Shown piece after piece: positions 13,066 to 16,649 of a stretch of DNA of 64,000 bases. This stretch comes from Cyanobacterium stanieri PCC 7202 (GTDB taxonomy: Bacteria > Cyanobacteriota > Cyanobacteriia > Cyanobacteriales > Cyanobacteriaceae): assembly GCA_000317655.1 (NCBI GenBank), contig CP003940.1:2675547-2739546 (forward strand). Direction: 5' to 3'. The notes below the pieces were generated by a model. That model had not been told where the DNA came from. It made no database searches and saw only the letters and a list, made by a program, of their open reading frames with translations. Within the stretch, counting starts at the first letter, position 1, and each line of letters opens with the position of its first letter. The position numbers were made by a program, and so were the translations under genes.

Positions 13066-13410
13066 TTAACCTATCAAAGTTTCTAATTTTGCCAAAACTT
13101 CATTAATAAGTGAAGACGGGGATTCTTCGACAAAAGTAGTTTGTCTAGCAACACAATCAACTGCCCTAATTTGATCAACTAAAACAACTCCATGGGTTTG
13201 CATTTGTGAAGGTAATTTAACCTCAAAAACCCATCCTTTTTGACGACTGGTAATCGGACAAATTAAAATAATTTTGGAAATTTGATTATAGGCAATAGGT
13301 GATATAACAAGAGCAGGACGATAACCTGATTGTTCGCTACCAGTACGGGGGTTCAATTCGAGTTTAACAATATCACCACGTTGGGGAATGCGATTATCAA
13401 CTTTTACCAA
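13066..13410 (-). CDS. mazF: MazF/PemK-type endoribonuclease toxin
   Basis: 114 aa, the usual size. MazF toxins cut single-stranded mRNA at short sequences and are held inactive by the antitoxin. The sequence shows the typical N-terminal PQRGDIVKLELNPRTGSEQSGYRPALVIS (GDI, G-x-E, RPALV) and a middle ILICPITS, then VVLVDQIRAVD, which carries family-conserved D and R. It overlaps the antitoxin gene by 7 bp and is downstream of it, the classical order. No degradation is seen. Confidence 0.92.
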   Translation of the reverse strand: MVKVDNRIPQRGDIVKLELNPRTGSEQSGYRPALVISPIAYNQISKIILICPITSRQKGWVFEVKLPSQMQTHGVVLVDQIRAVDCVARQTTFVEESPSSLINEVLAKLETLIG

Positions 13411-13646
13411 ATTTCTTCTCCGATTGTGTCACCCCAATCTAATTCATCATGTTGCATTTCAGGGGTAACATTTTTTAATAATTCTTCTAGGGTATATTTT
13501 GGTTTGGCAGGGGTAAGAATAATTTTATTATCTTCAATGGAAATATTTAATAATTCTCCTTCTTGTAAGTTAACCTGTTGAGTTATGGTTTGAGGAAGTC
13601 TAATGCCTAATGAATTCCCCCACATACTTATCTTCTGGGTAATCAT
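13404..13646 (-). CDS. mazE: MazE-type antitoxin (AbrB/SpoVT fold)
   Basis: 80 aa from the second ATG (13646). An upstream ATG at 13664 adds MSGAKK, but MITQKISMWGNSLGIRLP is the standard MazE start. The AbrB-like DNA-binding region covers residues 1-45 (WGNSLGIRLPQ, then a glycine turn and IIL). The C-terminus is acidic and aromatic (DELDWGDTIGEEIW), the kind of tail that wraps the toxin. It should repress its own promoter in the spacer before 13664. Confidence 0.9.
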   Translation of the reverse strand: MITQKISMWGNSLGIRLPQTITQQVNLQEGELLNISIEDNKIILTPAKPKYTLEELLKNVTPEMQHDELDWGDTIGEEIW

Positions 13647-13727
13647 TTTTTTTGCTCCAGACAAAATGTTTATACATTAAATATATCATTTGACGATAAA
13701 AGGGGAGATTAGCAATAACGATAAATT

Positions 13728-14159
13728 TTATCCCGAACTCAGGTTAATTAAACTCCAAAAATCACGAGGTTTGAGAATTAATACATCTTGAATAGGATTC
13801 AAAACTAATAAATCATCATCACCAGTAATTAGGTAAGAAGCATTACCATTTAAAGCTAAATCGATAAATTTATTATCTTTCTCATCTCGACATAAATTAA
13901 CTCTTTGAATAATTGGCACACAATGCCAGTTTATTTTTATTCGCTCTGATAATCCATCAATCTCTTTTGGCGTAATATATTTAGCAAATTTAGTTCTACT
14001 TAAAACAGATGACAACTCGCTTAACGTATCATGAGAATACAGAATAATTCCTCTATTTTCCCCCCAATTTAACACCTGCGCAGGAATAGAATTAGGGGCA
14101 AGAATAGAACTAATAAGAATATTAGTATCTAAAACTAAGCGAATGGAGAAGTCAATCAT
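13728..14159 (-). CDS. PIN-domain toxin (PIN_3 / TIGR00305-like)
   Basis: 143 aa. A single PIN nuclease domain of the kind that cuts RNA with Mg2+. The acidic residues are present: D in VLDTNILIS (about residue 10), E in LSELSSVLSR (about 48), D in DEKDNKFIDLA (about 96) and D in ITGDDDLL (about 113). Its start overlaps the stop of the Phd-type antitoxin by 8 bp, so the two are translationally coupled. Intact by eye. Confidence 0.88.
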   Translation of the reverse strand: MIDFSIRLVLDTNILISSILAPNSIPAQVLNWGENRGIILYSHDTLSELSSVLSRTKFAKYITPKEIDGLSERIKINWHCVPIIQRVNLCRDEKDNKFIDLALNGNASYLITGDDDLLVLNPIQDVLILKPRDFWSLINLSSG

Positions 14160-14400
14160 CTACTAATAATTCTTGTAGTTTATCCTCCGTTAAACCCTTT
14201 TCTAAGGCTCGGTTGCCAATATCTGCTCTAAATTGTTGAAATTCTTGAAGATTGATGCTGGTAATTCTTTGATAATCTTCCATCGACATAATAACTGCAA
14301 CATCACGATTTTGTTTTTGTATGGTGATGGGTTCACGTTGTGCTTGATTAATGATATTGCCGAAGGTTTGTTTCGCTTCTGTGGCAGAGACAAATCGCAT
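14152..14400 (-). CDS. Phd/YefM-type antitoxin
   Basis: 82 aa. The N-terminus VSATEAKQTFGNIINQAQREPITIQKQNRDVAVIMS is a textbook Phd/YefM DNA-binding dimer domain. The C-terminal half (EFQQFRADIGNRAL...) would bind the PIN toxin. This antitoxin type is usually paired with RelE/Doc toxins, but Phd/PIN pairs are common in cyanobacteria. The promoter and operator should lie in 14401-14500. Confidence 0.9.
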   Translation of the reverse strand: MRFVSATEAKQTFGNIINQAQREPITIQKQNRDVAVIMSMEDYQRITSINLQEFQQFRADIGNRALEKGLTEDKLQELLVDD

Positions 14401-14577: not shown

Positions 14578-14817
14578 CTTTCTCCATGAGCTTTGGTATA
14601 ATGAGCATAAATATATTGAACTCCAAAAGTGCCGACAGTACTATATATCAAAGGTTGAGGATTATTCTTTTATGCCAATGAAGGAAATGAACCAATGCAC
14701 ATCCATTGTCAAAAAGGTGATATGGAATGTAAGTATTGGCTAAATCCAGAAATGTTTGAAATCCAAGAGGCTTATTCTTATGAGATGAATAAAAACAGTG
14801 TTAGGGAAATTAGAAAA

Positions 14818-14854
14818 TTGACATACTCACCCGTTAAGCTAACGCTGTAACGGG
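14818..14854 (-). ncRNA. right-end hairpin / omegaRNA 3' scaffold of element 2
   Basis: On the minus strand CCCGTT pairs with AACGGG (14849-14854 with 14830-14835). An inner AGC/GCT-like pairing surrounds TAA, then 8 nt and TCAA follow. The tnpB stop codon lies inside the hairpin. The flanking sequence that would act as guide is part of the interrupted DUF4160 gene. Confidence 0.55.
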
Positions 14855-16288
14855 CGATTCTGAACAGCCAATTGCTTGACCATTTATCCACTCAAACAAC
14901 GATAGTTGCAGAGGGTTGCTAGGCTCAACGACTAACGCCATTGATTTCTCCCGTTTTTTAGACGAATCTGTTAATTCAGATTTAGCCGTAACTTTCTGAT
15001 TATCCACCAGTAGCTTGGATGGACTAATTCCAAGTATTTCTAGTCCTTTCATTCCAATATTTACACTTGCCTGATTGTCTGCATCCGCAATGAATCCGCA
15101 ATTAGTACAAACAAACTTTTCTTTATTCCTACTAGCGGAGTCAACATGACCACAATTTGAGCAAGTTTGTGATGTAAATTTAGGGTTAACTTCAGTTACA
15201 ATACAACCAAACTTCTCAGCTACCTGTTGTATTTTTAATACCAATTCACCCCAAGAACAATCACGAATCAATCTATTTAATGCTCTTTTTGCTGATTGAC
15301 TATTTCTTAAATATTTACCGTTTTCATCTTGTTTAGGTTTACATCTTTTGCTCATTCCTTGGATGTTTAAATCTTCCAGAACAATGACATCAGCTAACCT
15401 AGTTAAATGGTGGGCAATATTCCATTGATAGTTAGTTCTCCTATTAACTATTTTTTGGTCAATTCTTGCCAAATTTTGATATGCTTTTTTTTGATTTTTA
15501 GAACCTTTCTTTTTACGACTAGCTCTACGTTGTCTAATAGTTTTAGTGCGTTCTAATTGCTTTTCAAAGTTCGGGTTTTTAATCTGTTCTCCATTACTTA
15601 ATGCCAACAATTTCTTTATTCCCAAATCAACCCCTATTACAGATTTTACTTGGTCTAAATCTTTTGGTTGTGATTGTGGAATAGATTTATCCTCAAGGGT
15701 AATAGAGACATACCACCCATCTGCTTTTTGCCTAACTGTGACCGAACGTAAACTAAACCCTTCGGGTATTTGACGAGACTGAAAAAATCTCATCCAACCG
15801 ATAGAAGGAAGATAGATTTTATTGCCTTTTAATTTTACTTGATTAGGCGGATAGTTAAAACTTTTAAACCGTTGTCTAGTTTTAAATTTAGGGTATCCTC
15901 TCCCATCAAAAAAGTTCTTAAATGCTGTGTCTAATTTACGCAAATTTTGCTGTAAAACTGTTGAATGGATTTGTTTATACCAACTCCGAGTTTTCTTTAA
16001 ATTTGGCAATTCTGACGACTGTATCTCGTAGGCACTCCGTTTTTTATCTCCCTTAAAAGGTTCTCCTAAGTTCGAGTTTTTAGACACTGAACAAGTCAAT
16101 GGACAACATTCTGCTTTTGTCCTTAAATCACAGTAATTCCCTAGCTTAGGTTGCTTTACTTGGTCATAGCTTTCAATTCTATCTCTAAGACAAAAATTGT
16201 AATGAGAGCGAAGCATATCAAGCCAATTCGCCATCATTTGTTGCTGATAGCTACTTGGTTTTAACTTGTACTTATATGCTTTGTTCAT
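14834..16288 (-). CDS. tnpB: TnpB RNA-guided endonuclease (IS605 OrfB), element 2
   Basis: 484 aa, longer than the other two copies because of an insertion near residues 50-100 and a C-terminal tail. RuvC residues look intact: D in VIGVDLGIKKLL (about 222), E in VIVLEDLNIQGMSKR (about 306) and D in ADADNQASVNIG (about 411). The zinc ribbon reads CSNC...CTNC (about 385-403). The N-terminal NKAYKYKLKPSSYQQQM is the OrfB start motif. The ATG start lies 50 bp from the divergent ribbon-helix-helix gene, so both may share a control region. It is a different lineage from copies 1 and 3, judging by sequence and hairpin. Confidence 0.9.
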   Translation of the reverse strand: MNKAYKYKLKPSSYQQQMMANWLDMLRSHYNFCLRDRIESYDQVKQPKLGNYCDLRTKAECCPLTCSVSKNSNLGEPFKGDKKRSAYEIQSSELPNLKKTRSWYKQIHSTVLQQNLRKLDTAFKNFFDGRGYPKFKTRQRFKSFNYPPNQVKLKGNKIYLPSIGWMRFFQSRQIPEGFSLRSVTVRQKADGWYVSITLEDKSIPQSQPKDLDQVKSVIGVDLGIKKLLALSNGEQIKNPNFEKQLERTKTIRQRRASRKKKGSKNQKKAYQNLARIDQKIVNRRTNYQWNIAHHLTRLADVIVLEDLNIQGMSKRCKPKQDENGKYLRNSQSAKRALNRLIRDCSWGELVLKIQQVAEKFGCIVTEVNPKFTSQTCSNCGHVDSASRNKEKFVCTNCGFIADADNQASVNIGMKGLEILGISPSKLLVDNQKVTAKSELTDSSKKREKSMALVVEPSNPLQLSLFEWINGQAIGCSESPVTALA

Positions 16289-16303
16289 TTTTTTTGTTAT
16301 CCT

Positions 16304-16326
16304 AAAGATATATTTATTATATCTTT
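16304..16326. promoter_or_regulatory. perfect 9-bp palindrome between tnpB and the RHH gene
   Basis: AAAGATATA (16304-16312) and TATATCTTT (16318-16326) surround a 5-bp centre, in the 49-bp spacer between the divergent starts. Ribbon-helix-helix proteins bind such inverted repeats as dimers, so this is a candidate operator for both genes. The role is inference. Confidence 0.55.
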
Positions 16327-16337
16327 TTTATAGAAAC

Positions 16338-16478
16338 ATGGTTAAAAAAACTCAAATTAATTTAAAGTTGCCTGAGTTTGAATATCGGGTGTTGGAAGAT
16401 TACTGTCAAAGAACAGGGAGGTCTAAAACAGAGATTTTAAGAGAGTTTATTCGTTCTCTCGAAAACTCTGGGAAGTAA
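16338..16478 (+). CDS. ribbon-helix-helix (CopG-like) protein inside element 2
   Basis: 46 aa from ATG 16338; an upstream ATG at 16266 would run through the tnpB start and the palindrome and is unlikely. The sequence has one short strand (KTQINLKLP), then helix EFEYRVLEDYCQRTG and helix SKTEILREFIRSLE, which is a complete ribbon-helix-helix fold with the RSKTEILRE turn. Such proteins are dimeric repressors. It lies within the transposon, opposite to tnpB, and most likely controls tnpB and itself through the palindrome. Too short for many gene finders. Confidence 0.75.
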   Translation: MVKKTQINLKLPEFEYRVLEDYCQRTGRSKTEILREFIRSLENSGK

Positions 16479-16479
16479 G

Positions 16480-16539
16480 GACTCGCTGTCGCTCGATTTG
16501 TTTATCGGTTCGTTTACATCCCCCGTTGATTTCAGTGGG
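16480..16539 (-). repeat. left-end boxes of element 2
   Basis: CGAGCGACAGCGAGTC (minus strand, 16480-16495) is identical to 43942-43957 in element 3. The box CCCACTGAAATCAACGGGGG (minus strand, 16520-16539) matches the left-end boxes of elements 1 and 3. They mark the transposon left end. Confidence 0.75.
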
Positions 16540-16649
16540 TATTTTTTCGGGAGAAATTCAAAGGGGGTCTTTCACTCACATTTAAGATAACTTATCAAAA
16601 CTTGGATGATCTTATTGAAGCGTGGATCAACTTTCACGGAGAATAAATA

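Follow-up and report, generated by a model that had tools for sequence, protein, structure and literature searches.

A ribbon-helix-helix gene facing tnpB in cyanobacterial IS605-type elements: a probable and exchangeable off-switch cassette

A tnpB element with a divergent ribbon-helix-helix gene

We analysed a 64,000-nt stretch of DNA from Cyanobacterium stanieri PCC 7202 (contig CP003940.1, positions 2,675,547 to 2,739,546; hereafter the window), in which an IS605/IS1341-type element lies at 14818-16586. The element carries tnpB on the reverse strand (14834-16288, 484 aa, no internal stop), found by open reading frame (ORF) calling and assigned by profile to the RNA-guided nucleases. Divergent to it, on the forward strand, is a 46-aa gene for a ribbon-helix-helix (RHH) regulator (16338-16478), in the position that the transposase gene tnpA takes in some related elements. 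The starts of the two genes are separated by 49 bp, and inside this interval lies the palindrome AAAGATATA-N5-TATATCTTT (in full AAAGATATATTTATTATATCTTT; 16304-16326), with perfect 9-bp arms and a 5-nt spacer, which we propose as an RHH operator. An original prediction made from the letters alone had named the RHH ORF opposite tnpB, the palindrome and the bounds of the element; the ORF was recovered by ORF calling with a match to RHH_1 above cut-off, the palindrome was confirmed between the two starts, and the bounds fit the limits of similarity to related elements.

The window TnpB exceeded the Pfam cut-offs for OrfB_IS605 (76.3 bits), Cas12f1-like_TNB (69.5 bits) and HTH_OrfB_IS605 (41.3 bits) and scored 265.5 bits with the NCBIfam model guided_TnpB (cut-off 100); the narrower IS200_TnpB model gave 211.4 bits, below its cut-off of 425. 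Residues D221, E305, D402 and D404, together with C376, C379, C394 and C397, were invariant across six TnpB relatives, and we take D221, E305 and D402/D404 to be the acidic catalytic residues of RuvC and the four cysteines to be a zinc finger. The RHH protein matched RHH_1 (21.2 bits, cut-off 20.5) and TraY (21.9 bits, cut-off 21.3) in Pfam. When nine other RHH-type proteins were compared with Pfam, three exceeded the RHH_1 cut-off, and the L231 and RLDF types gave no match (L and G numbers denote the loci and genomes of our comparison). A single-chain model of the window RHH protein, made without an alignment, has helices at residues 13-26 and 30-43, no strand and a predicted local distance difference test score (pLDDT) of 80; its fold matches, none of them at E ≤ 0.001, were led by ParG (the best), Arc and CopG, with VapB, ParD and TacA also present.

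The right end of the element lies near 14818 (TTGA; TCAA on the other strand), where similarity to L222, L248 and L225 begins (14817-14818), and the left end near 16586, with similarity ending at 16583-16584 for L249 and for L225 and L260 (the same sequence) and at 16594 for L039; the exact tips are thus placed at 14818 and 16586 by inference from these limits. The sibling L225/L260, which has no RHH gene, resembles the window element over 14817-16292 and again over 16479-16583, leaving 16293-16478, the proposed operator plus the RHH gene, as a cassette without counterpart.

Occurrence of the head-to-head layout

In the window's own genome, which holds 36 TnpB-like stretches (several being parts of the same gene), P0001 matched three RHH genes at E ≤ 0.01, each facing a tnpB. 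Another RHH type (RHH_1 17.0 bits, below the cut-off of 20.5) stands divergent about 60 nt upstream of tnpB in L019 and, at a greater distance, upstream of the TnpB matches in L027 and L029, which are partial. P0001 matched 40 of 60 genomes, the window's own included, and every listed place was collected; the A1 profile, made from 20 RHHs, had matches at E ≤ 1e-9 in 83 of the 386 cyanobacterial genomes, and from those listed we took 29 loci (several already sampled) and 40 further places, to which the plasmid loci L114-L120 were added. Removal of sequence duplicates reduced 156 loci to 140, with near-identical copies counted separately. A TnpB was found within 400 nt in 67 of these 140 RHH loci (one being the TnpB-like C2c8), and all 67 pairs were head-to-head; seven of the 67 TnpB matches scored below 60 bits and were mostly fragments. 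Of the 43 RHHs that scored highest (≥70 bits), 31 have a TnpB neighbour. The RHH proteins were mostly 43-51 aa long. Plasmid examples include Chondrocystis sp. NIES-4102 and Oscillatoria nigro-viridis PCC 7112, and the RHH is a listed feature in neither of the two tables.

Named records with a window-type TnpB were all cyanobacterial (Geminocystis, Crocosphaera, Prochloron and others). Plasmid searches for occurrences beyond the cyanobacteria returned only cyanobacteria for three RHH queries and nothing for a fourth, and chromosomes of other phyla, scanned only with window-type TnpB, also returned cyanobacterial records. Phage records gave no match at E ≤ 1e-3 to one RHH (that of L044), and by eye a divergent RHH was seen in none of 15 viral contigs with a TnpB relative, one of which (L277) has a divergent Y1-like tnpA ORF. 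Another family of small divergent ORFs, RHH-like by eye and with an SLSEYLE motif near the end, stands beside tnpB in L231, L240, L262 and L266; L242 has yet another RHH type (RHH_1 30.6 bits), of which L236 is a broken relative.

Selection on the RHH gene and its place in the mobile unit

The pooled ratio of nonsynonymous to synonymous differences (pN/pS) for RHH was 0.21 over 25 non-overlapping pairs, which were preselected for at least 60% amino acid identity and pS of at least 0.08, a selection that lowers pN/pS. By this measure the RHH genes are under purifying selection. Near-identical copies within one genome reach just past both tnpB and RHH (L208/L209/L210, 99.8-99.9%; L141/L191, 100%; L087/L088, 99.5%; L144/L197, 98.9%). 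At other loci RHH is kept and tnpB is absent or reduced: L186/L187 (G137) are identical over 495 bp around RHH at two places, L199/L200 (G332) have little or no tnpB and are 94% alike over 550 bp, L192 (G316) has lost most of tnpB, and in L066 TnpB is down to its first 25 residues. Judged by the extent of these copies, the RHH gene travels within the mobile unit.

Exchange of the cassette

Within the window's genome, L002 (with RHH) and L028 (with a Y1 tnpA) have 84% of their tnpB DNA in common, counted from its start codon, and 94% of 49 bp at the opposite side. Between these shared flanks L002 has the RHH cassette and L028 (G000:C1:1764020-1767985) has tnpA, a divergent 132-aa ORF, of which 90 aa were scanned and matched Y1_Tnp with 88.3 bits.

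Replacement of one RHH by another is indicated for the window element and L053 (L222; genome G010), whose TnpBs are 94% identical and whose RHHs are 42% identical. The DNA similarity of these elements, about 90%, ends at 16306, inside the palindrome; a weaker match (70.5%) resumes at 16415-16509, so that their RHH genes are homologues that have diverged. Synonymous divergence was 0.365 for tnpB and 0.790 for RHH (Fisher p = 2.3e-5); the higher value for RHH therefore points to replacement and not to faster protein evolution alone. In other pairs it is the TnpBs that are dissimilar: L002 and L131 have TnpBs 28% alike and RHHs 76% alike, with 34% versus 74% for L130/L217 and 31% versus 73% for L148/L194, and L140 and L131 have 24 of 25 site bases in common. 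Promoter similarity tracked RHH more than TnpB (partial correlations 0.50 versus 0.30; 52 loci, 1326 comparisons), with the 45 nt compared adjoining RHH, a choice that favours the RHH side. A quick tree built from 99 proteins (96 TnpB and three C2c8), chosen with a view to RHH, calls for at least 12 changes in RHH presence and at least 14 in cassette type, the types being assigned by motif and rows of the L231/L262 type called RHH by eye. By these comparisons RHH and its site behave together as a cassette that can be exchanged.

Two candidate arguments were set aside. L205/L211 was dropped as a swap, its RHHs being 67% alike, and the rate comparison fails as proof of a swap for L148/L195 and similar pairs, where synonymous sites are near saturation.

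Conserved sites beside two RHH families

In two RHH families, FFRL (named after a motif) and TIRCS, the DNA before the RHH gene is conserved. The FFRL site, ATTGTATATC-N5-RATATACAAT, differs by 13% over its 22 bp and the adjoining 20 nt by 45% (seven loci, 21 pairs), and synonymous sites of the FFRL RHH genes are nearly saturated (pS 0.84). The TIRCS site, a GACGGC tandem (RACGGCAWTATGRCGGC), ends at the RHH ATG; the last 18 nt before the ATG differ by 12% and the next 20 nt by 53%, with pS at 0.82 (eight loci, 28 pairs). Each pattern was then scanned through eight genomes, 15 different ones in all, the conserved stretches being 17-25 bp long. With up to two mismatches in about 46 Mb, all 10 FFRL sites lay 2-4 nt before an FFRL RHH ATG (reversed control, 0), and with up to one mismatch all 10 TIRCS sites abutted a TIRCS RHH start (places compared by eye; control, 1). 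Because the patterns derive from loci in the scanned genomes, the presence of the sites is not independent, which detracts from our interpretation, and their absence elsewhere is independent. The comparison shows two RHH families coupled to a conserved site that is exclusive to them in the genomes scanned. The FFRL pattern was not found in G015, nor the TIRCS pattern in G054 and G316, and viral contigs with an FFRL-like pattern showed no RHH and no TnpB over the stretches examined.

L314 has a 25-bp site with perfect arms, separated by 6 nt from the ATG of tnpB and by 4 nt from that of RHH; with this spacing a protein bound there should block tnpB and RHH alike. Separately, an RHH 80% identical to the FFRL type occurs without a listed tnpB in L292 (Nostoc sp. 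TCL26-01 plasmid pTCL26-01_C); a ParB-family gene lies upstream of it, and at least eight tandem ORFs with a 211-bp period come after it.

The window palindrome would be the site of the window RHH. Its pattern, allowing up to three mismatches, had a single match in the 64-kb window, with 0.10 expected and one match in 10 of 100 shuffles. Its own copy is the only perfect match in the 3.16-Mb genome, with one further place at two mismatches and 12 places at up to three (versus six with a reversed control), and a second good site that would point to a regulon of the window RHH elsewhere in its genome was not found. Against shuffles of its own 80 nt and 50 nt the palindrome gave p = 0.010 and p = 0.007, respectively.

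Comparison with known systems

Cas12 is held to descend from TnpB (PMC8987985). The closest parallel in layout comes from type V-K CRISPR-associated transposons (CASTs), where, as described in PMC9938897, two RHH regulators (Arc_1, Arc_2) and one of the MerR type (CvkR) are encoded upstream of cas12k in reverse orientation. That source reports that CvkR represses from a palindromic motif and counts 22 Arc_1 and 11 Arc_2 genes in that position; tnpB as a term is absent from its main text. The two systems have in common a small DNA-binding regulator facing a TnpB-related effector in cyanobacteria (PMC9938897), but the effector there is Cas12k and here it is TnpB itself, in IS605-type elements. 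At 30 Cas12k loci (L152-L181) the divergent ORFs were by eye MerR-like in 11 and Arc-like in seven, and the A1 profile gave a lone weak match (9.8 bits) in L163, beyond a MerR-like ORF. Only one Arc-like ORF was scanned, the neighbour of Cas12k in L153, and it belongs to another RHH family, Pfam 56B_RHH. A common origin with the Cas12k Arc regulators is therefore unsupported, since the profile finds no such neighbour and the scanned ORF is 56B_RHH. L169, L175 and L179 have other helix-turn-helix-like ORFs upstream of Cas12k (by eye).

IS605-type elements with divergent tnpA and tnpB have the same kind of ends and the same kind of tnpB, but hold a transposase gene where the RHH cassette stands here. 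CopG/Arc-type autorepressors of plasmids and phages are likewise short RHH proteins, and the fold matches to CopG and Arc and the PHROGs matches ('transcriptional repressor', 'Arc-like repressor') agree with this likeness; they differ in that the proposed target here is the gene of an RNA-guided nuclease. A CRISPR effector takes the place of TnpB in L120 (NZ_CP025929.1, Microcystis aeruginosa NIES-2481 plasmid p1), where an RHH (59.8 bits by the TnpB-RHH profile) stands divergent 55 nt from C2c8 (V_cas_c2c8, 480 bits; PADLOC Cas12u2; type V-U2), behind which are at least six CRISPR-like repeats with a common core of about 37 nt. The likeness is a divergent RHH facing a TnpB-like nuclease. No palindrome was seen by eye between the C2c8 and RHH genes of L120, and the two other C2c8 loci found had no RHH match. 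C2c8 as a sister of the RHH-associated TnpBs was not retained, the tree being unable to place the long C2c8 branches. Passages on tnpB or IS605 together with RHH or copG in open-licence papers describe no such regulator, and no paper on repression of TnpB by its own element came to light there, most subscription journals lying outside that search.

Other features of the element and the window

An inverted repeat at the right end of the element (14822-14862) has arms at 14822-14836 and 14848-14862 that are 80% complementary. Directly outside the left end is TTAT (16587-16590, reverse strand), which from the left ends compared by eye may be a target or transposon-adjacent motif (TAM) sequence. 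Two small gene pairs adjoin the element (13066-13664 and 13728-14400) and are toxin-antitoxin-like by their translations only. Another element of the window, Element 1, has AAGAT-AAA-ATCTT at 2223-2235, as had been predicted; the repeat is part of CACAAGATAAAATCTTTGTG, which is present again in the sibling copy L036. Its reading as a relic of RHH control is unsupported: the repeat recurs in L036, where RHH was not found.

Discussion

We consider it probable that the RHH gene and the adjacent site form an autoregulated off-switch cassette on TnpB elements, so that these nucleases probably carry their own off-switch. The cassette would occupy the position in the element that tnpA can take; the small RHH protein would dimerise, the dimer would bind the symmetric site (a tandem one in one family) between the two start codons, and the bound protein would shut down both the divergent tnpB and the gene that encodes it at the level of transcription. 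We read the locus in this way because the head-to-head layout recurs, the RHH gene is under selection, family-specific sites are conserved and the cassette is exchanged. Comparison thus supports the self-regulating switch of the original prediction well, whereas conservation of this exact palindrome is unsupported, no second example having come up.

Several observations weigh against this interpretation. The cassette is, from the loci compared, optional and often absent. The TnpBs closest to that of the element within its own genome (67-68%; L008, L009 and L010/L024) have no RHH, and in named genomes a divergent RHH or RHH-like ORF accompanies window-type TnpB at four of 29 loci (L262, L263, L266 and L273), as read by eye from ATG-initiated ORFs that lie within 200 nt and are 36 aa or longer, with L248 cut by a contig end. 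The Prochloron loci L264, L267, L270, L271 and L275, copies within a single genome, show no RHH ORF, and by eye their DNA before tnpB resembles that of L273. (In some Prochloron copies the DNA departs from L273 near the proposed operator, also by eye.) Conversely, 73 of the 140 RHH loci have no TnpB within 400 nt, and seven of the 67 pairs leave no room for an intervening site because their starts, called by script, overlap. As to exchange, the window and L045 (G002; TnpB 89%) have synonymous divergences of 0.446 for tnpB and 0.607 for RHH (p = 0.12), and blastn aligns the window with L223, the longer locus of the L045 element, at 83% over 14812-16513, through the RHH gene. A second instance of the window palindrome was not found in the other loci compared. 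Inverted repeats between RHH and tnpB reached p < 0.05 in five of 30 RHH clusters (Stouffer z 1.29 and 1.39), and RHH-less tnpB controls did so in one of 15 usable cases (of 24; z 1.64; Mann-Whitney p = 0.75). General palindrome enrichment was therefore rejected as evidence, the regions upstream of RHH-less tnpB scoring equally well; of the predicted combination of tnpB, divergent RHH and palindrome in cyanobacteria, the layout recurs and the palindromes are not enriched.

The symmetry might instead reflect a two-way promoter only, with back-to-back -10 boxes, the RHH protein regulating itself or something else. The arms often hold TACAAT- or TATAAT-like boxes readable both ways (by eye), and the window has a promoter-like TTAACC-18-TATAAT for tnpB (16316-16345, reverse strand) with its TATAAT (16316-16321) within the palindrome; the stretch scanned has two promoter-like sites versus 1.1 expected from shuffles, a weak excess. 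The negative outcome of the general palindrome test also fits a promoter. Such a promoter fits poorly, however, with the length of conservation in two RHH families, the tandem GACGGC site is not promoter-like, and the sites occur only at those RHH genes in the genomes scanned, site and RHH pairing with unrelated TnpBs. We regard this explanation as unlikely.

The RHH protein could also be an accessory of transposition, bringing to the element a TnpA that acts in trans. TraY and NikA act in relaxosomes and ParG in partition, and the Pfam match to TraY, ParG as best fold match, NikA-like and ParG matches for relatives (below cut-offs) and the shared position with the tnpA of L028 would suit such a role, but the conserved site lies between two start codons and not at the element tips, which makes it quite improbable. 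Very improbable, in our estimate, is an antitoxin-like protein that inhibits the nuclease by contact, with or without repression: VapB, ParD and TacA are among the fold matches and a RelB-like match is weak (20.3 bits, cut-off 50), whereas 43-51 aa leave little beyond the DNA-binding fold, and one RHH type serves TnpBs only 28% alike. From the RHH gene to the end of the element there is no ORF longer than 30 aa, and hence no candidate gene for a toxin partner. That RHH gene and palindrome are neighbours of tnpB by chance, as close TnpB relatives without RHH might suggest, is hardly credible given 67 head-to-head pairs in 67, purifying selection and the exclusivity of the sites.

If RHH and site are an off-switch cassette, the cassettes might further define 'immunity groups', in which one RHH silences siblings with the same site in trans, RHH-only derivatives serve as silencers and a swap, also against tnpA, is an escape; we offer this as a tentative and rather doubtful extension. 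Lambdoid phages, for comparison, exchange immunity regions.

Should the off-switch be real, an exchangeable repressor borne by the element itself would be a handle on the timing of TnpB cutting, could serve TnpB tools as a natural off-switch and would parallel the small, divergently encoded repressors of Cas12k. Some of the elements that have tnpB only would then be explained as ones in which a regulator of the nuclease stands in place of the transposase gene.

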